Position numbers and translations under genes: made by a program
Source: an uncultured Spirochaetia bacterium
Lineage (GTDB): Bacteria; Spirochaetota; Spirochaetia; JABEVK01
Direction of reading: 5' to 3'
DNA: 36,720 nucleotides
Assembly (NCBI GenBank): GCA_937960645.1
Contig: CALGPJ010000013.1
Coordinates: 1-36,720 of the forward strand
Notes under the pieces: model-generated
The model's database searches: none
The model's input: the letters and a program-made list of their open reading frames with translations, nothing else
Told to the model about the DNA's origin: nothing
Shown here: positions 1,229-36,720 of the stretch, piece after piece
Numbering within the stretch: the stretch's first letter is position 1
How the letters are laid out: each line of letters starts with the position of its first letter

Positions 1229-4200
1229 TTAACGTTGATCCCGAATTTGATTCCAGAGGTTGAACCTCGCCCCCAGACTAAACTTGCTGATCACTGTGGG
1301 ACTGAGATCGGAGCTGATGATCCAGCCCGAGTATTCACCATAGATTCCCAGGCTGTTGAAGAAGGCGAATCTCTTGTTCTTGATCTGGATAAATTCCACC
1401 TGACCCAGGAAACTCGTCAACAACACCCCGCTACCAAAGGCCGCAATATTGGAAGGATCCTGGGTGAAGTAGGTGAAATTCGCCCCGATCAAGGCGCTGG
1501 TGCTGAAAGCTTCGGCATCCGGTCCAAAGATACTTTCCCACTCCAGACTGAACACCTTGGCCATCAGTTTCACCCCGTGCGCATAGCCATAGAAGCGGGA
1601 ATTTTCCTCGCTTTTTGCGATAAAGCCCGTCTGGGCCTGAAGACGGACTGCTTCCTGGAAGAAGAAGAAACCAAGACCAGCGCTCCACAAGGTAGCTCCC
1701 AAACCATAACCATCCACGTAGAGTCCATCGATGAAGCTGGGCGGGGTGTAGCGTCCTCGATTGAGCATGACCTGAACTGCAGTGAGTTTGCTCTCGTCCA
1801 TGGCAGTCCCCGCCAGGCGAATGACCTCGTTGAAGCTTCCTTCCGCCTGATCGGGCACGAGGATTTCAACCCTCGGTGCGACTGTATCGGTAAACAGAAT
1901 CATTCGGCTTGTCGTGACACTACCATCGGCAAATCCGGTACGGATCAGTACGGTGATGGGCCCCTGGCTAAACGTATGCGTTTGCAAGCGGTAACGCCAT
2001 TCACGATCCCCCTTGACAAGTCCCGATCCCTCGGTAACCCGAGCTTCCCATTGCTCGACCTTTTCGAAGGTCATGCCATTGTTCAAGCTCACTTCGATGT
2101 TGATCGGTTGCCTTCGGATTTCCTCCAGGGTAAGCTGGAATTCACCGTAACGCGGCGCGGCAGGCACACCGCCCTCTGTTGCGGCAGCTTCCGCGGAGGG
2201 GGTTTCGAGCGGCTCGGTGTAGTACCCGACGAAACCTGTCAGGTAAGGTCGATTCGAAATGAAATCTCCATGCTTGTGGCTTGTCACTCGGATCCAGGGC
2301 CCCTGAAGCATGTATTCGATCTGCCGGGGAAGACTGGTCACCTTTTTATTATCGATTTGGATTTCGACCTGAAGGTTGAGGGTTTGGGTCTTACCGGGCT
2401 TGCGTGAGTCGGCCGTGAGCAGGGGAATGATATCGGAGGCTAACACCGTACCGTTGAAGTACCCCTCGGTGCTGACATCGATGGTGGAAATGATTCGGCC
2501 ATTGATCAGGACCACGGCCTTCTCCGGTATCTGGCGTGCAAACACGCGGCCATTGATGGCGATGGGACCACTGATCTGCTGTCCCAGGGCCGGAAAACTC
2601 ACTTCCACCTTATCGGCCACGGCTTGTTCCATTACCTGTACATTCCGAGTCACGAGGGTGACATTCCCGGCATCGTCAATGGCCTCGAGACTCATGTTGT
2701 ACCAACCGGGCTGAAGGCCACTGATGTCTACCTGACTTGTCAAACCGGCCCCGCTCAGGGGAAAATCGCCGGTCAACGGCGGCCGTACCGCGCCGATGGG
2801 CCGAATACTGTAACGCAGACTGCGGAGAATCATGTTATCTTCGGCCCGTCCTTCAAAGACCAGATTTCCGATCACCTGATCTCCATCGACAGGACTCGTC
2901 AAATTGACATGCGGCTTCGTATTGTCGACAGAGAACAATACGTTGTAATCTGCGGAAGCCCCGGTCTTGTCGAAGGCGCGAATCAACAGGGTGTAGATTC
3001 CATCCTGAATCAAACTGGTATCGAGGTCGTAAGACCAGGTTTCCTGCCCCTTCATTTTGAAGAAGGTGTTTCCGTTATCGATACTGATAAACACCGACTC
3101 GACACCGTTGGGGTCCTCACTTTTCCCTTGAAGATTCACCTTGCCCCGCTGTGTGACCCGCACATCAGGTGCGGTTAACTGGCTGGTCGGACCAGATCTT
3201 GACACGGTGAAATTTCGTTTGATGATTTCACTCTTGGTGCCGTTGATATCCTCAGCGTAGACCTCGACGAAGTGGTCGGTGTCTTTGATGTCGTTCAGAG
3301 AGATGGGCAGGGAGAAAGAATTCCCGCCCTCCAACTTGGTGAAGCTGCCCTGACCGTTCAATCGCACGTACACTGCCCCGACACCGTCATCGTCGATGAC
3401 CAGACCGCTGATGGCAAAATCGCTGCGCAGAATTTCTTTTTCTGCAGGAATTTGCATATTCACGACAGGAATATCCTTTTGCCTGTCGACAGTAAACTTG
3501 ACCTCCTGCACATTGGTGACCCCGCTCGCCGTGGTGATACGGAATCGATAAACATCCGGCATGGGGTTCTTGGAAAAATCGATGAACCTTTGGAATATGG
3601 CGCTGAACTCCATCGGCTCCCAGTTTCTGTTATCCTCGCTGTATTCCAACTTGAGAATAGGAGCCTGAGATTGCAGACGTCCCACGACCAGGGTTTTACC
3701 ATCGACAGCGACTCCCTGCGGAGGCGCCAGGATCGTCAATTGTGCCCCGGCGGTGCTCTTGAAAACGGGTTGGTAAACGAGACGGGCATTTCCCGAGGAA
3801 TCCGTCGCCCGAATCCTTAAAAGAAGGTCCCCATCGGGAATGTTGGCGAGTGGGATTTGGGAATTGACCAGGCGGTTGGCCGGGTTGAAGCCGGGCACGA
3901 CTTTGAAGTCTTCCTGATTGAGTGCATACTCTAAGGTTTGGATTCCGCCGGCATCCGCCAGTTCCAGGCTCAGGCCCAGGGTGGTGGCGTTCCAACTGCT
4001 AATTTCGGGGTTCTTCAGGGTAACTGCCGGCCCCTCCAGATCCGTCACGAAGGTATAAGTTCCCAGGTTCGCACCCGTGTTCGCCACGAGTCGGACACTC
4101 CGGGCGATGCCGGGGGTCGAGCCGGTTTTGACCTTGACGAGGGTCACCGTTCCCAGGGGAAGCACCTCGGTGGTAACGACCTGCGTGGCAGGCTGCAAGC

Positions 4201-6043
4201 TAACAGATGCGATTTCGCCAGGGACAACTATTTGGAAGGGATGGTTTTCCGTAACGATCATGCGTTCGTTGTTCCCCAACCCCTGGCTGAACAGGGGTTC
4301 TGTCCCCTCTCCTACCGAGGGATCCTCACGAAGAATAAAAATAGAGTAAGGAACCTCACTGCCCACACTGCCGCGGACACTGAGGTTGATGGTCAAGGGT
4401 CCCTTGAGATTGACGTTTCCGGTGTTGGGCCGCACGATGTCCGAAAGCGGTATTTCAAACCGATAAGCCTCTCCTTCTTTTCGGGCACTCACCCGGCCGC
4501 CGCGGCCGCCGGACACGGTATAGATCACTTCTCCCAGGCGGGCATCATCGGTGAGGATCCGGCCGGTGAACGAGGGTGGCCGGGCGTTCTGGCCCTCTGC
4601 CGGAAGGAACATACCGGGCTGATAGGGTTCGTTGCGTGCCGTATTTCCGCTTCCAAACGTGAAAGCGAAGCTCGACACATCCCAAACGGGGGGCTTGGGA
4701 GCCGTCTCGATATCCAACCGTACAGGCGTTGAATCGATGCCCTTCGCATCCTTTGCCGTCAGCGTGATTTTTCTCTTACCCGGGGGCAGGTTGGCGAGCT
4801 CGATCAAAAAAGCCCCCTTGGATTCCACCTCGCCACTGGGTCCGCCTTCGACAGTGTAGACGATTTTCGCGACCCCATCGGGATCACGAGCAAACCCCAC
4901 AATGCGAATCGGATACCCCGGGTCGCTGATCACCGAGGCGGTGAGGGTCGGCCGATCAGCCTCGAGACTCAGGGTAAAGAAATGTTCGAAACTCTTGACG
5001 TTTCCGATTTTATCCTCGATTTGAAAACGAATCCTTTTTCGTCCATTCTGATTCACGTACGTTAGGGGCACATGGAAAAACGGATTACCTGGAACCAATT
5101 CGAGCTCTCCGCGTACGTTGCCCTCCGCTTCCCAGCTCACCTTTTGAATACCGACCTGGTCGTTGACAGCTCCGATCACACTGACAAACCCGGGCAGGTT
5201 CTCCTCGGTCTTGGGTTCAAAAAATTCGATGGTAGGCGGGGTATTGTCGACAAAGTATAGAAAGCTATCATTACCGACGTTTCCGAGGGGGTTGACGCTT
5301 CGAAACCACAGGATGTTGGGACCGTCCTGCTGCTTTGTCGTGTCGATTTCGTAATCGAAGCGGAACACTCCCTGGTCATTGACCTTGCTAAAGGAGACCT
5401 CCCGGTAATTTTCCTGTCCCCCCTCGCTGACCAAAAACCGCTGAATACCGTTGGGTTCCAAAATGGTCCCCTGAATCCGAAATCTTCCCTTGACCAGGGC
5501 ACCGGTAGGATGGCTTTCCACCCTGGCTACGGGCTTTTTTTGATCCAGGTGAAAGGATACCTCACTCCAGGGACTTTGCTTGCCATTCGTGTCCGTTGCC
5601 CTGGCCCTGACTTTGTAGACCCCGTCGGGCAGGTTTTCCAGGTTAAAAAAGTAGCTCCAATAGCGCTGGCCATTGGCTTTCAACACTTCCCCATCGTCGC
5701 CGAGTTGAACCTCGACAAAGTCGATCGCGTCGTCATCGACGGCCGTCCCGACCACGTTGATATTGCCGGTGGAGCGGGCGCCCGGTAGTGGACTCCCGAT
5801 CCTGATGGAGGGTATGTCGGATTGCGGATCGACCTTGAAATTGATGGGACCGGCAATCGATACGTTTCCAGCACCGTCTTTTGCCCTCAGGACCAGGTTA
5901 TATGTGTCCGGCTTGAGTTGGGAAATATCAAAGTCGTAGTGCCAGTTCTCCAGTCCATTGACATTTTTCCATTCTTCCTTTTGCCCTCCGGCAAACACGA
6001 GGGTAGCCGGCATCAGGAGGATCATCAAAACTGTTTTTTTCAT
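1229..6043 (-). CDS. Giant secreted Ig-repeat protein with C-terminal beta-barrel-like domain
   Basis: A 1604-residue protein with an N-terminal signal peptide (KK, hydrophobic core, ending VFAG at ~19). Nearly the whole length is a chain of bacterial Ig/Fn3-like domains of ~90-100 residues with the recurring pattern 'P-x-(I/V) ... G-x-(A/V)-x-D-D-x-(G/A)-(I/V) ... W-x-Y-x-(F/L)-(D/N) ... DG-x-Y-x-(L/V)-x-x-R-A-x-D'. From about residue 1431 to the end the sequence changes to alternating aromatic/hydrophobic strands (GLGFFFF, ALIGANFTYF, FSLGARFNLW) and ends in a short charged tail, as expected for a small outer-membrane beta-barrel. The first Ig unit (about 20-76) lacks its first half and the last (about 1386-1430) lacks its second half. 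The start is supported by GGAG upstream and a TTGACA-N18-TAAAAT promoter. It is probably a surface-exposed or periplasm-spanning structural or adhesive protein; the exact function is unknown. Confidence 0.8.
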   Translation of the reverse strand: MKKTVLMILLMPATLVFAGGQKEEWKNVNGLENWHYDFDISQLKPDTYNLVLRAKDGAGNVSIAGPINFKVDPQSDIPSIRIGSPLPGARSTGNINVVGTAVDDDAIDFVEVQLGDDGEVLKANGQRYWSYFFNLENLPDGVYKVRARATDTNGKQSPWSEVSFHLDQKKPVARVESHPTGALVKGRFRIQGTILEPNGIQRFLVSEGGQENYREVSFSKVNDQGVFRFDYEIDTTKQQDGPNILWFRSVNPLGNVGNDSFLYFVDNTPPTIEFFEPKTEENLPGFVSVIGAVNDQVGIQKVSWEAEGNVRGELELVPGNPFFHVPLTYVNQNGRKRIRFQIEDKIGNVKSFEHFFTLSLEADRPTLTASVISDPGYPIRIVGFARDPDGVAKIVYTVEGGPSGEVESKGAFLIELANLPPGKRKITLTAKDAKGIDSTPVRLDIETAPKPPVWDVSSFAFTFGSGNTARNEPYQPGMFLPAEGQNARPPSFTGRILTDDARLGEVIYTVSGGRGGRVSARKEGEAYRFEIPLSDIVRPNTGNVNLKGPLTINLSVRGSVGSEVPYSIFILREDPSVGEGTEPLFSQGLGNNERMIVTENHPFQIVVPGEIASVSLQPATQVVTTEVLPLGTVTLVKVKTGSTPGIARSVRLVANTGANLGTYTFVTDLEGPAVTLKNPEISSWNATTLGLSLELADAGGIQTLEYALNQEDFKVVPGFNPANRLVNSQIPLANIPDGDLLLRIRATDSSGNARLVYQPVFKSTAGAQLTILAPPQGVAVDGKTLVVGRLQSQAPILKLEYSEDNRNWEPMEFSAIFQRFIDFSKNPMPDVYRFRITTASGVTNVQEVKFTVDRQKDIPVVNMQIPAEKEILRSDFAISGLVIDDDGVGAVYVRLNGQGSFTKLEGGNSFSLPISLNDIKDTDHFVEVYAEDINGTKSEIIKRNFTVSRSGPTSQLTAPDVRVTQRGKVNLQGKSEDPNGVESVFISIDNGNTFFKMKGQETWSYDLDTSLIQDGIYTLLIRAFDKTGASADYNVLFSVDNTKPHVNLTSPVDGDQVIGNLVFEGRAEDNMILRSLRYSIRPIGAVRPPLTGDFPLSGAGLTSQVDISGLQPGWYNMSLEAIDDAGNVTLVTRNVQVMEQAVADKVEVSFPALGQQISGPIAINGRVFARQIPEKAVVLINGRIISTIDVSTEGYFNGTVLASDIIPLLTADSRKPGKTQTLNLQVEIQIDNKKVTSLPRQIEYMLQGPWIRVTSHKHGDFISNRPYLTGFVGYYTEPLETPSAEAAATEGGVPAAPRYGEFQLTLEEIRRQPINIEVSLNNGMTFEKVEQWEARVTEGSGLVKGDREWRYRLQTHTFSQGPITVLIRTGFADGSVTTSRMILFTDTVAPRVEILVPDQAEGSFNEVIRLAGTAMDESKLTAVQVMLNRGRYTPPSFIDGLYVDGYGLGATLWSAGLGFFFFQEAVRLQAQTGFIAKSEENSRFYGYAHGVKLMAKVFSLEWESIFGPDAEAFSTSALIGANFTYFTQDPSNIAAFGSGVLLTSFLGQVEFIQIKNKRFAFFNSLGIYGEYSGWIISSDLSPTVISKFSLGARFNLWNQIRDQR

Positions 6044-31846: not shown

Positions 31847-34800
31847 CTATTTAACGATCATAACTGTTCTAATTTCATCGATGCCCGGTGCGCTGACTCG
31901 GATGAAATAGGGTCCACGTGCCACGACGCTGCCGGCCTCGTTTCTACCGTCCCAGGTAGCCTGATACTCCCCGGCTGCTTGCCGTCCCCGATGGAGGACA
32001 CGAACGGAATTGCCGTCCAGGGTGAACACCTGAACCGTCGCGATACCGCTGTCGGACATCTGGTAGAGAAGCGTGGTCTTTTCACCGACCTCGGGATTGA
32101 TGACGTTGTTGAGGATGGTGACCCCACCCTTCTGACGTGTGACATCGCGGATTTGAAGCCGGTAAAGATCCCACTGGCGAGGATCGTTGGCACTCAGGGA
32201 TCGAGCCACCGGCAGGGTCCCCAATTGGAAGAGGAAGGCGATCTCCTTGCCGGCCTGAATTTCGCTGTCGGAAGAGGGAATACGGTAATTGTGCAGGGGG
32301 GGCGCTGACTGATAGGGCAGGAGGGTTCGCGCCTGCGCGTTTCCCTGGGCGCTCAAATCCAGGATCTGCTGGGGCAACCACCGGTTTCCCAAAAGGGCAT
32401 CGGATCCATCGACATCGAAGAAGAGCTGCGGAACCGGCGGAGATGTCAGTCCGGGGTTGACCTGGGCCTGGAGGTCGATGTTGCGCGGGGTGAGAGCCTG
32501 GCTCCCATCGAAGGAAACCGCTACCCGGTGAATGCCGGAGGTGTTTGCCTGACCCTCCGATCCATCGGTAGCCCAGAGGGGAGAGACCAAACCCAATCCC
32601 AAATTGGTCGACAAGTACTGAATGGAAGAATCCATGTCGTTTTGCGGGGCATCGGTAATGTGATTGGGCGCGGTGTTGGATTGGATGCGACCCAGGACCA
32701 AATCGTCGGGCACCAGGGCCTGGTTCAGCTCGAGGAAAATTTCTTTTACTCCCGTGGCCCAGGCCCCATCCAGGGGGGTGACGCTCGTGATCGACAAGCC
32801 CGCGGAAAAATTGCTCAAATTGAAATGGTTTGCCGTGAGCGGCGATCCGAAACTCGATCCATTGAAAACCTTCTCCGAAAACCTCAGGTAGATTCTCGTC
32901 ATACCGACACCGGCCAGCGTGTGCTGAATGCGTGGCGGGGTCTTTTCGATGCTTACCCACGGCGTAGCCGTCGATACCGTTCGCAGCAGGTTTCCAGCGA
33001 GATCGGTGACCATACCCGCAACCTCGTTGTAACTCATTTCCAAAGTGTCGACCGGAGCCCATCCGCGGGCAGCTACGGAAAGGGTAAGGGACAGGTATTG
33101 GTCATCCGGGTTGTTGATGGTGGCAGGAACGATCACGAAGGGAGGTGAAACGACATTGGTCGTCAATCCGATGAGGGTACCGGCACCGGACCAGGTTGTC
33201 TGCCCCTGTTTACGCAGCTGAAAGGCATCGAGGTTGGTAAACGAGCTGTCGCGAATCCCCTTGGGGTTGACGACGGTGCTCGCCTGACCATGATAACCCG
33301 CAGCCACCGCAGAGTGCCAGTCGGTATAGGAGTTCGGATTGTCGAAGAAATGAATCTCGAGGGTGTCGATTTCGTTGTCCAGGCTGGTGTCTTTCACGAC
33401 GAGTTCCCACAAAATCACGCCGGAAAGTGGCGAAGGCTGGGGAGCTACCGGCCAATAAGGGGCCATCTGCGGCGGATCGATGTCCCAGCCCCCATAACCG
33501 GAAATCGGCAGAGACAGGGTGGCGCCGTTGAGGTGGTTGGCGGTGTTGCCCACCAGGGTATCCTGATTTTGAATGCTCAAAACCGGTTTGGCGACCACAT
33601 AAGAATCGCTCGTGGGTTCAAGCTGATTGGCCGCTGGACTGAGGTCCTGGATATTGGCGTTGGAGGGGACCGTGACCGTTTGCCCAATGGGGTTGGTGAC
33701 ATCACGAAGATAGCCATCCCAGAGCACCGCATCGGAATATCCCGCCAGGAAAATCAGCACCCCGTGCTGGCCGGCGGGATTGGGAGCGGCCCGGTAAATG
33801 CTGTGAACCTGGGTGTGATTCACCCCGTCTCGATGAAAGCGCTCCAGAGTCCCTAAGTAGGAGAAGAATCCCGCCACGCTCACCGTGCCGCTGCCATGGG
33901 CATCTCCCCAGGTGCTGTTGGAGGCAAGATTGGCAGCCGCGGCCGGTGGCCCTCCAACAAAGGTGACCGGTTCGCTGAAACGGAGGAAGAGGTAATTGTG
34001 AGCATCGTAGTTGGTGTAGGGACCACCGGGGGTATGGGCTGCCCGACCTGCGGTGATGGCAACTAAAACCGGTCGGGTTCGATCGGCGGTGGCACTGAAC
34101 ACGGGTTGGGCGTTGTAATTGTAGTTTGCAACCAGACCCTTTCCCCCACGGGCGTAGAGGGTCCCCTTGATAAAACTCAGGTCGGGGATGTTGGTCCGAT
34201 GGACTCCCTGGCGGTCAGTGCTGATGGCGGCGCCAGAGCTCGTCCCCGTTGCGTCGGTGTTCCAGCGCCTGGCCGGCGTGGTCACCCGAAAATACAGGAC
34301 GTTGGTCTGGGGCACGCCCCCCTGATGGCTGTAAACCGGGCTGGCCGGGTTGGAAAAATCGACGATGACTTCCTCGAACGCGAGGGTGTTCCCCGAATGG
34401 GCGACATCGCCGACACGTAAGGCGAGGATGTTGGTGGCCAGGGTGTTGCCGATGTTGGCCACTCGCTGGTTGAAGGTGACCTTGACCAGATCATCGTAGA
34501 CCGTTTCCGCCGCGGTGATTTCGAGGCGGGTGAAGTTCCAGCCCGCATCGTCGGTGGTATCGTTGAACACGTCGTTGCTACCACTGTCGGTGTTGCCTTC
34601 GTCCCCGGCGGTGGGGGCGGCCACGGCGCTTCCCGGGCTCGACGTCACCTGACCGAAAGCGACCGACGAGCGGAACATCCGGGCGTAGGGCGTTCCAAAC
34701 GGGGGGTTGGCTACCGGGTTCGCCGCGCTGTTGTCCGGGATGTTCAGGGTCCAGTTGGCAGCCGCCGGGAGGTTGGCCCCATGGTGGTACCAGTTGCCGG

Positions 34801-36720
34801 TGATGTTCCAGGTGGACCCGTTCAGGTTACCGAAGGTGGCATTCACCGCCACGGAAAAAGCGCCGGTGGCCGGATTGTAGGCGCCCCCTCCGGGGTAGTA
34901 CACAAATCCTGAAGCCTCGGGGCAGGCAAAGAAGGCGTTGCCCGGGTGGCTTGTGCTGCGATCGGCATCCAGGGGGTTGTAGGCACTGCCAAAAACGGCG
35001 TAGTTGCGCGCTACGGTGACGGTCTGCCCGTTGGGGTTGAGGGTCCCTCGGTAGAAAACAAAATCACGAACACTCAGGCTGGTCTGCAGGGTCAAGGTCA
35101 ATCCATTGAAGTCCAGGTAAAGGTCGGTGGCGGGCAAGGATACCGATGTCGCCTGCCAGGTCCCGACTCCTGCGCTGCCGGTAAATCTCACCGCCTGGGG
35201 AGCCGTGAGGGCCTGGGCACCGGTGGTGCGGTAATTGAGTCCGGTGAGCTGGATCAGTCCTGCTGCGGAGGCGTTCCAGGAGGAGGCCCCCGGTCCGGCT
35301 GCGCCGAGGCTGAAAAGGCTGAGATTATTGCCCGAGATGGAGAGCGCCTGCAGGGGCACGGCGGATCCGAGGACTCCCAGGGTGGTGACATTCCCGGTGC
35401 CGGAGGTCAACGTCAAATCGAAGGCCCCATCGACGTTGGCGCTCAGCGTGATGTCCCCCGCACCCGCTCCCGTACTCAGCTGCACGTTCTGCGTCAGCGT
35501 GATCGCTGTGGCAAAGCTCAGGTTGTTGTTCGCCGTGGTGATGTTCGCCCCCAGGCTGTTCGCCCCCGCCCCGCTCTGCGTGAAGCTCCCCGTTACCGCA
35601 ATCGCCCCCACATTGTTCTTGGTGAACAGCCCCGCGTTCGTCACCGTCATGGTGCCGCCCACCGTCATGCCCGCATTCACGCTCAGCGCATTCCCCGTGA
35701 ACGCCACATTCCCCGTGTAGTCCTGCACCCCGTTGAACGTGCTCGTCCCGCTGCCCGCCGCCTGCGTGAAGCTGGTAGCCGTCACCGCCCCGTTAAAGGT
35801 GGCGTTCGCCGCACTGGTGATGCTCAACGCCCCCAGCCGCAACACGTTCCCCACCGCACCCGTCACCGTGATGCTTCCCGTCCCCGCCACCAGCGTCAGC
35901 CCCTGCGTACTGGCCGCCTGCGGGTTCACCGTCGAGCTGAAGCTGATCCCCCCGCTCGCCGTCACGCTCGTGGTGTCCTGCAGCACCGCCGCACCCGTCA
36001 CCACGAACGTCCCCGTCCCCAGGTTCACACTCGGCGTATTCGCAAAATACACCGTCCCGCCCTGCAAACTCAGATTCCGATTTATCGGGTTGTACGTGTT
36101 GCGCAGATACACATCCCCGCTCGTCACCGCACTCAAATGAAAACTCGGCGTCAAGGCCCCCAGCGTGTGCCCCACGTGCAGATCCCCGCTCTGCGCCCCG
36201 CCCCCCAGCGTAAAACTCCCCCCCACCAGCGTGAAGTTCGTGCTGTAGTGCACCACCGTCACAATCGCCGGATCGTCGCTCGGTGAAAACTCCACACTGC
36301 TGGCAGCGTTGCGCGGCCGCAGCGTGAACACCCCCGTCCCAGGGTTGATCGTGTTGCTCCCGCCCAACGTCCACCCGTTGGTCACCAGCGTGATGTCGCC
36401 GTTGCTCACCGAGGTGTCCAAATCCACCGTGTTGTCCAGCGTCACCGTCTCCGCATCCACGTCCAGCTGCGTCAGGTTGTTCGCCACATCCGATCGAAAC
36501 CGCACCCACCCCGTCCCGTGCGTCGTCAGGCTCAGGCTCTGCGCCCCCGTCACCGCCCCATAAAAGTCCAGGTTCCCGTTGTTCGCCGTCGTCTGGATAC
36601 TCACCGCGCCCCCGCTGAGCGTGATCGTGTCCGCAGCGGCATCCCCAAACTGCACGCTGCGGCCCGCCTGAAACACCAGCCCGTCCAGCTGCACCGTCCC
36701 CGACAGCACCGTGGCCGTGT
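31847..36720 (-). CDS. Giant secreted beta-repeat protein with FlgD-like C-terminal domain (N terminus outside window)
   Basis: The frame is open through the window edge, so at least 1623 residues of the C-terminal side are visible and the start is missing. The first ~520 visible residues are low-complexity beta-strand repeats rich in Gly, Thr, Ser, Asn and Val (LTLVAGTGSITVTGAVGN, FTQSGAGANSLGANITT), as in filamentous-haemagglutinin/autotransporter-like beta-helices. The middle (about 520-1540) has several Ig-like units with 'F-S-E-x-V' or 'F-N-Q-R-V' strands (FLRFSEPVTF, IYLRFSEKVFNGS), resembling SbsA-type Ig domains. The last ~75 residues are a FlgD/sorting-type Ig module with 'V-x-V-F-T-L-D-G-x-x-V-R-V-L' and TWDGRNEAG, then GPYFIRV. 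It is probably a surface adhesin or matrix protein. Third-position GC is clearly higher upstream of about 35450 than downstream. Confidence 0.8.
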   Translation of the reverse strand, partial: TATVLSGTVQLDGLVFQAGRSVQFGDAAADTITLSGGAVSIQTTANNGNLDFYGAVTGAQSLSLTTHGTGWVRFRSDVANNLTQLDVDAETVTLDNTVDLDTSVSNGDITLVTNGWTLGGSNTINPGTGVFTLRPRNAASSVEFSPSDDPAIVTVVHYSTNFTLVGGSFTLGGGAQSGDLHVGHTLGALTPSFHLSAVTSGDVYLRNTYNPINRNLSLQGGTVYFANTPSVNLGTGTFVVTGAAVLQDTTSVTASGGISFSSTVNPQAASTQGLTLVAGTGSITVTGAVGNVLRLGALSITSAANATFNGAVTATSFTQAAGSGTSTFNGVQDYTGNVAFTGNALSVNAGMTVGGTMTVTNAGLFTKNNVGAIAVTGSFTQSGAGANSLGANITTANNNLSFATAITLTQNVQLSTGAGAGDITLSANVDGAFDLTLTSGTGNVTTLGVLGSAVPLQALSISGNNLSLFSLGAAGPGASSWNASAAGLIQLTGLNYRTTGAQALTAPQAVRFTGSAGVGTWQATSVSLPATDLYLDFNGLTLTLQTSLSVRDFVFYRGTLNPNGQTVTVARNYAVFGSAYNPLDADRSTSHPGNAFFACPEASGFVYYPGGGAYNPATGAFSVAVNATFGNLNGSTWNITGNWYHHGANLPAAANWTLNIPDNSAANPVANPPFGTPYARMFRSSVAFGQVTSSPGSAVAAPTAGDEGNTDSGSNDVFNDTTDDAGWNFTRLEITAAETVYDDLVKVTFNQRVANIGNTLATNILALRVGDVAHSGNTLAFEEVIVDFSNPASPVYSHQGGVPQTNVLYFRVTTPARRWNTDATGTSSGAAISTDRQGVHRTNIPDLSFIKGTLYARGGKGLVANYNYNAQPVFSATADRTRPVLVAITAGRAAHTPGGPYTNYDAHNYLFLRFSEPVTFVGGPPAAAANLASNSTWGDAHGSGTVSVAGFFSYLGTLERFHRDGVNHTQVHSIYRAAPNPAGQHGVLIFLAGYSDAVLWDGYLRDVTNPIGQTVTVPSNANIQDLSPAANQLEPTSDSYVVAKPVLSIQNQDTLVGNTANHLNGATLSLPISGYGGWDIDPPQMAPYWPVAPQPSPLSGVILWELVVKDTSLDNEIDTLEIHFFDNPNSYTDWHSAVAAGYHGQASTVVNPKGIRDSSFTNLDAFQLRKQGQTTWSGAGTLIGLTTNVVSPPFVIVPATINNPDDQYLSLTLSVAARGWAPVDTLEMSYNEVAGMVTDLAGNLLRTVSTATPWVSIEKTPPRIQHTLAGVGMTRIYLRFSEKVFNGSSFGSPLTANHFNLSNFSAGLSITSVTPLDGAWATGVKEIFLELNQALVPDDLVLGRIQSNTAPNHITDAPQNDMDSSIQYLSTNLGLGLVSPLWATDGSEGQANTSGIHRVAVSFDGSQALTPRNIDLQAQVNPGLTSPPVPQLFFDVDGSDALLGNRWLPQQILDLSAQGNAQARTLLPYQSAPPLHNYRIPSSDSEIQAGKEIAFLFQLGTLPVARSLSANDPRQWDLYRLQIRDVTRQKGGVTILNNVINPEVGEKTTLLYQMSDSGIATVQVFTLDGNSVRVLHRGRQAAGEYQATWDGRNEAGSVVARGPYFIRVSAPGIDEIRTVMIVK

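Follow-up and report, generated by a model that had tools for sequence, protein, structure and literature searches.

A split and permuted Ig-like domain probably closes the Ig array of a giant spirochaete protein

The window analysed here, a 36,720-nucleotide stretch of DNA from an uncultured Spirochaetia bacterium, encodes a 1604-residue protein whose exported chain seems to begin in the middle of an Ig domain and whose Ig array seems to stop in the middle of one. The question raised by this locus is whether the two fragments belong together and, if they do, whether they pair within one molecule or between molecules. The relevant features, all on the minus strand, are the following:

6043 to 1229, minus strand: open reading frame of 1604 amino acids (translation)
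6043 to 5990, minus strand: cleavable signal peptide MKKTVLMILLMPATLVFA, residues 1-18, without a lipobox Cys (translation)
5986 to 5819, minus strand: N half, Ig strands E-F-G, residues 20-75 (Ig profile and relatives)
5818 to 1883, minus strand: array of about 13-14 Ig-like domains, residues 76-1387, some of them weak matches (Pfam Big_7 and Big_13; Ig profile)
1882 to 1745, minus strand: C half, Ig strands A-B-C, residues 1388-1433 (Ig profile and relatives)
1735 to 1232, minus strand: C-terminal barrel, residues 1437-1604 (eight strands predicted on a relative)
1209 to 433, minus strand: LysM and M23 peptidase gene, downstream of the gene under study (Pfam)

The two halves were delimited with an Ig profile of 91 positions made from the internal repeats of the protein family. 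Residues 22-72 match this profile solely at positions 41-91 (27.1 bits) and residues 1390-1433 solely at positions 3-45 (8.8 bits, weak taken alone), while alignment to the next complete domain assigns strands E, F, and G to the N half and strands A, B, and C to the C half. Two pieces far apart in the sequence therefore jointly cover one Ig fold, in this protein and in all 132 of the relatives described below. The half-domains are genuine, they complement each other, and chance falls far short of explaining them, so that the sequence-only reading, which had pointed out complementary half-Ig domains near both ends of the protein, was correct in this respect. A Pfam scan of the last 168 residues of the window protein returned no match.

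A scan of genome contigs with the single sequence found no relatives, and these were recovered by scanning with an alignment of the C-terminal region. The family is present in 147 of the 395 Spirochaetia genomes searched and in 66 of 133 genera, a few matches being weak or fragmentary, and its named members include Treponema and many uncultured Spirochaetales. From these genomes we extracted 132 distinct complete Spirochaetia relatives with open frames of 1348-2443 amino acids, every one of which has the N half (profile match from about position 42, median of 18.9 bits) after the signal peptide and the C half (match from about 3 to 48, median of 19.5 bits) ahead of the barrel. As in the window protein, a hydrophobic leader immediately precedes the N half in the Spirochaetia relatives. 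In the small number of frames where no N half is detected, the assembly is the cause: runs of N, a contig edge, or a lost start. Both halves also occur in all seven relatives from other spirochaete classes, none of which has a first half ahead of the N half. In these proteins (L251 to L257), a charged, coiled-coil-like stretch of 100-250 residues lies between the signal peptide and the N half. Two adjacent copies of the gene (L099:820-5083 and L099:5091-9315), which are paralogues, each keep both halves. None of the relatives examined has an additional full Ig domain at one of its ends. A local deletion in the window gene is ruled out because all complete relatives share both halves, and the split-ended architecture is old and does not result from an accident in a single gene.

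Whether the halves evolve as parts of one domain was addressed with an alignment of the C half, the N half, and six intact domains from 130 species. Direct coupling analysis (mfDCA) was run pairwise between blocks, with mutual information as a second measure, and the bands scored were the three Ig strand pairs that cross the cut, B-E, C-F, and A-G, with offsets set on the intact domains only. The C half and the N half reach a composite band score of 0.36 (z of 3.6; 0.43 for B-E, 0.52 for C-F, and 0.13 for A-G), within the 0.12-0.51 of the six intact domains, against a mean of 0.00 and a maximum of 0.25 for 42 mismatched pairs, in which a first half is set against the second half of another domain and which are not mutually independent, since they share halves. 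Mutual information concurs with mfDCA for the C-half and N-half pair (z of 3.1). No mismatched pair attains its value under any of four clade weightings, with a small margin at the two strongest, and in 22 of 25 species subsamples it exceeds all 14 mismatched pairs sampled. The A-G band is weak, 10 of the 42 mismatched pairs scoring equally high. No covariation was detected between the C half and the second half of the first intact domain (Ig1), or between the first half of Ig1 and the N half (composite of -0.10). We rely on the strand-pair bands since correlation with the full contact template is less clear (0.17 for the C-half and N-half pair; mean of 0.07 and maximum of 0.23 for mismatched pairs). 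The halves thus covary at the canonical B-E and C-F pairs as strongly as the halves of intact domains do.

Structure prediction with AlphaFold2 was carried out on a short relative, L053 (Spirochaetaceae bacterium S145_15), which is 30% identical to the window protein. A long construct of 1162 residues, containing both halves without the barrel and predicted from an alignment of 58 relatives including the window protein, gave C-half strands A (1112-1117), B (1127-1135), and C (1140-1149) at pLDDT values of 79-88 and N-half strands at 14-20, 27-37, and 42-52 at about 80-87, with an overall pTM of only 0.55. In a control construct running from 235 residues ahead of the C half to the end of the protein, thus with the barrel and without the N half, strand C is gone, strand B has five residues instead of nine, and the C-half pLDDT per ten residues reads 76, 76, 70, 59, and 65; the sequence adjoining the C half does not make it complete. 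In this same prediction, the preceding domain is at 90-98, more confident than in the long construct, and the barrel is mostly at 92-98 with eight strands. The two constructs are unequal in length and alignment depth, and contact between the halves is read from strand assignment and confidence rather than from coordinates or an aligned-error matrix. The loss of strand C and the drop in confidence when the N half is absent and the barrel is present argue strongly, if indirectly, that the C half depends on the N half and that the barrel is no substitute for it. Foldseek searches with both models returned only generic multi-Ig proteins and gave no placement of the barrel, and the C-terminal alignment had no match in a sequence search of the PDB.

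The terminal domain has the marks of an outer membrane beta-barrel: its strand number is even (eight), amphipathic alternation is clear in most strands though not all, and Phe is the last residue in 76 of 81 aligned rows, although not in the window protein, which ends in Arg. Its turns on the side of the termini are nearly constant in length (standard deviations of 0, 0.1, and 0.8), whereas the loops on the opposite side vary (1.9, 6.7, 2.9, and 2.8). In outer membrane barrels, the side of the termini is usually the periplasm. Because the constant turns lie on that side, the Ig chain probably faces the periplasm, which makes the label of surface protein given in the sequence-only reading doubtful.

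Taken together, we consider it probable that the protein is an Ig chain anchored in the outer membrane, with its two ends joined by an Ig domain that is split and circularly permuted. In such an architecture, the exported chain would start inside an Ig domain with strands E-F-G, pass through about 13-14 complete Ig domains, and end its array in strands A-B-C of the same domain type, with the eight-stranded outer membrane barrel directly after them. The N-terminal E-F-G half would dock on the C-terminal A-B-C half, and the two would form one complete Ig sandwich. This closing domain would continue from the last Ig domain through strand A and lead into the first through strand G, as in an ordinary link of a tandem array, and it is for this reason that joining the halves would close the array into a loop. 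The result would be a closed necklace whose chain break falls at the C/C'-E loop of the closing domain, which would be the site of both the unattached N terminus and the barrel linker and from which the barrel would hang. From about 4 nm per domain, we estimate the circumference of the loop in the window protein at some 60 nm.

The sequence-only reading had proposed ring closure or strand complementation between molecules as in pilins. Complementation between the halves is supported by covariation and by the paired predictions, and of its two forms we deem closure within one molecule the likelier. In the alternative, the N half of one molecule would complete the C half of the next, giving head-to-tail arches on the outer membrane, in principle like pilins. 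Covariation, which is blind to the difference between pairing within and between molecules, fits such arches equally well, as does conservation, and both of the adjacent paralogues keep both halves. Nevertheless, the local concentration of the two ends is higher within a molecule and a single chain already gives the complete strand pattern in AlphaFold2, for which reasons closure in cis is favoured; moreover, the length of the family members ranges from 1348 to 2443 residues with no visible lock for a partner. We therefore regard pairing between molecules as rather unlikely. No chaperone or usher genes were found among the Pfam-identified neighbours or the neighbour clusters viewed, in a search that was not exhaustive.

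It is improbable that the halves are unpaired, each being a degenerate cap folded either by itself or on the neighbouring domain. Such caps would be compatible with the weak score of the C half of the window protein by itself and with a contact in the model that was not seen from coordinates, but they do not account for the occurrence of both halves in every complete relative, for the specificity of the covariation between them, or for the disappearance of strand C when the N half is missing. Between the N half and the first half of Ig1, its adjacent domain, there is no covariation.

That another protein, such as a neighbouring giant Ig lipoprotein, completes the N half or the C half is deemed very improbable. 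An Ig lipoprotein of about 1700-3300 residues does adjoin the gene in many genomes, but the inspected lipoproteins with intact ends begin with a complete Ig domain and finish in a different type of sequence, and the observed covariation lies within the protein described here. No matching half-domains were seen at the ends of 14 such lipoprotein sequences, several of which are cut by the locus edge. The genome of the window encodes a giant Ig lipoprotein of 2591 residues on contig C28 (L247:6019-13791), with a lipoprotein of the same kind directly downstream (L247:14122-17001); relatives of these adjoin the gene in many other genomes, whereas here they are on a separate contig and hence unlinked to it. 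Finally, the suggestion that the halves are the trace of a circular permutation in which the barrel structurally replaced the missing half is scarcely credible. The halves do stand in the order expected from a circular permutation, but the barrel is predicted as a separate fold with its own eight strands, next to which the C half is still incomplete. A permutation in the history of the protein agrees with closure of the array into a ring; structural replacement by the barrel does not.

Split Ig-like domains are already known from other proteins, with which the present architecture can be compared. In the lipin/Pah phosphatidate phosphatases, the N-Lip and C-Lip regions, far apart in sequence, cofold into an Ig-like domain (PMC8342540). 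Here too, N- and C-terminal parts of one protein would share an Ig-like domain; lipin, however, is a cytosolic enzyme without an Ig array or a membrane barrel, while the present protein carries the second half ahead of the array and the first half after it, an order in which their joining would close the domain chain. In the RTX adhesins FrhA and MpIBP, an Ig-like domain is split by an inserted ligand-binding domain (PMC10865825). These adhesins share with our protein a long Ig array that includes a bacterial Ig-like domain made of separate sequence segments, but their interruption is local, whereas here the halves are reversed, E-F-G at the N end and A-B-C at the C end, and lie at the ends of the array. 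Beta-propellers use a Velcro closure, in which the last repeat is completed by a piece from the N terminus and the ring of repeats is thereby closed; in the present case, each repeat is an entire Ig domain, and closure would be by a split beta-sandwich. Chaperone-usher pilins have an Ig fold without strand G that is completed by the donor strand of another subunit. The likeness is that of an incomplete Ig fold completed by sequence from elsewhere, but pilins lack one strand, supplied by the next subunit, while here each half consists of three strands, the N half carries E, F, and G, and the three strands would be donated probably within one chain. The protein is also no classical (type Va) autotransporter, whose passenger is exported by a C-terminal 12-stranded barrel, since eight strands are predicted and no Pfam autotransporter match was found in it. 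The spirochaete envelope proteins of the OmpL47 or Big repeat type (NCBIfam NF047446 and NF047441) have similar Ig-like repeats, but the whole-protein Lepto_OmpL47 score of 38.1 bits is below the NCBIfam cutoff of 250, and the split ends and the terminal barrel lie outside these models, as far as the match shows. Our literature searches returned no description of the family and no split Ig domain that closes a long Ig array with permuted halves; as far as could be found, the permuted order closing a whole array is new. If the proposed architecture is true, it would show a general way in which a single chain can form a closed protein loop of very large size, one conserved throughout the phylum to which Treponema belongs, and would offer a testable architecture for the terminal barrel, so far uncharacterised, and for the giant spirochaete Ig proteins, whose topology is obscured by domain-by-domain annotation.

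As to function, a structural role as envelope scaffold or spacer is suggested with low confidence. A quite improbable extension of it is that a ring built from one chain, with at least a dozen Ig domains and its attachment to the outer membrane next to the closing domain, sits in the periplasm and surrounds or guides some envelope structure, for example the periplasmic flagella. Flagellin was counted by eye in 146 of the 147 genomes with the gene, the exception (G168) being 81% complete, but 136 flagellin-bearing genomes across the class do not have the gene, and the co-occurrence could be explained by kinship alone, related lineages sharing both.

Regarding the surroundings of the gene, the LysM and M23 peptidase gene also lies directly downstream of it in a genome of the same genus (42% identity, 65 bases downstream) and was not found near it in the other genomes examined; its relation to the protein is uncertain. 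Some Treponema genomes have two further genes after it, the first for a protein that has no Pfam match and resembles a leader, a coil, and a barrel, the second for an HD_5 membrane protein (L132:8898-10040 and L132:10009-11457). The window contains a second very large frame of 1620 amino acids (31847-36709, minus strand), with a C-terminal FlgD-type Ig domain at residues 1548-1607 (Pfam, 8.6e-10).
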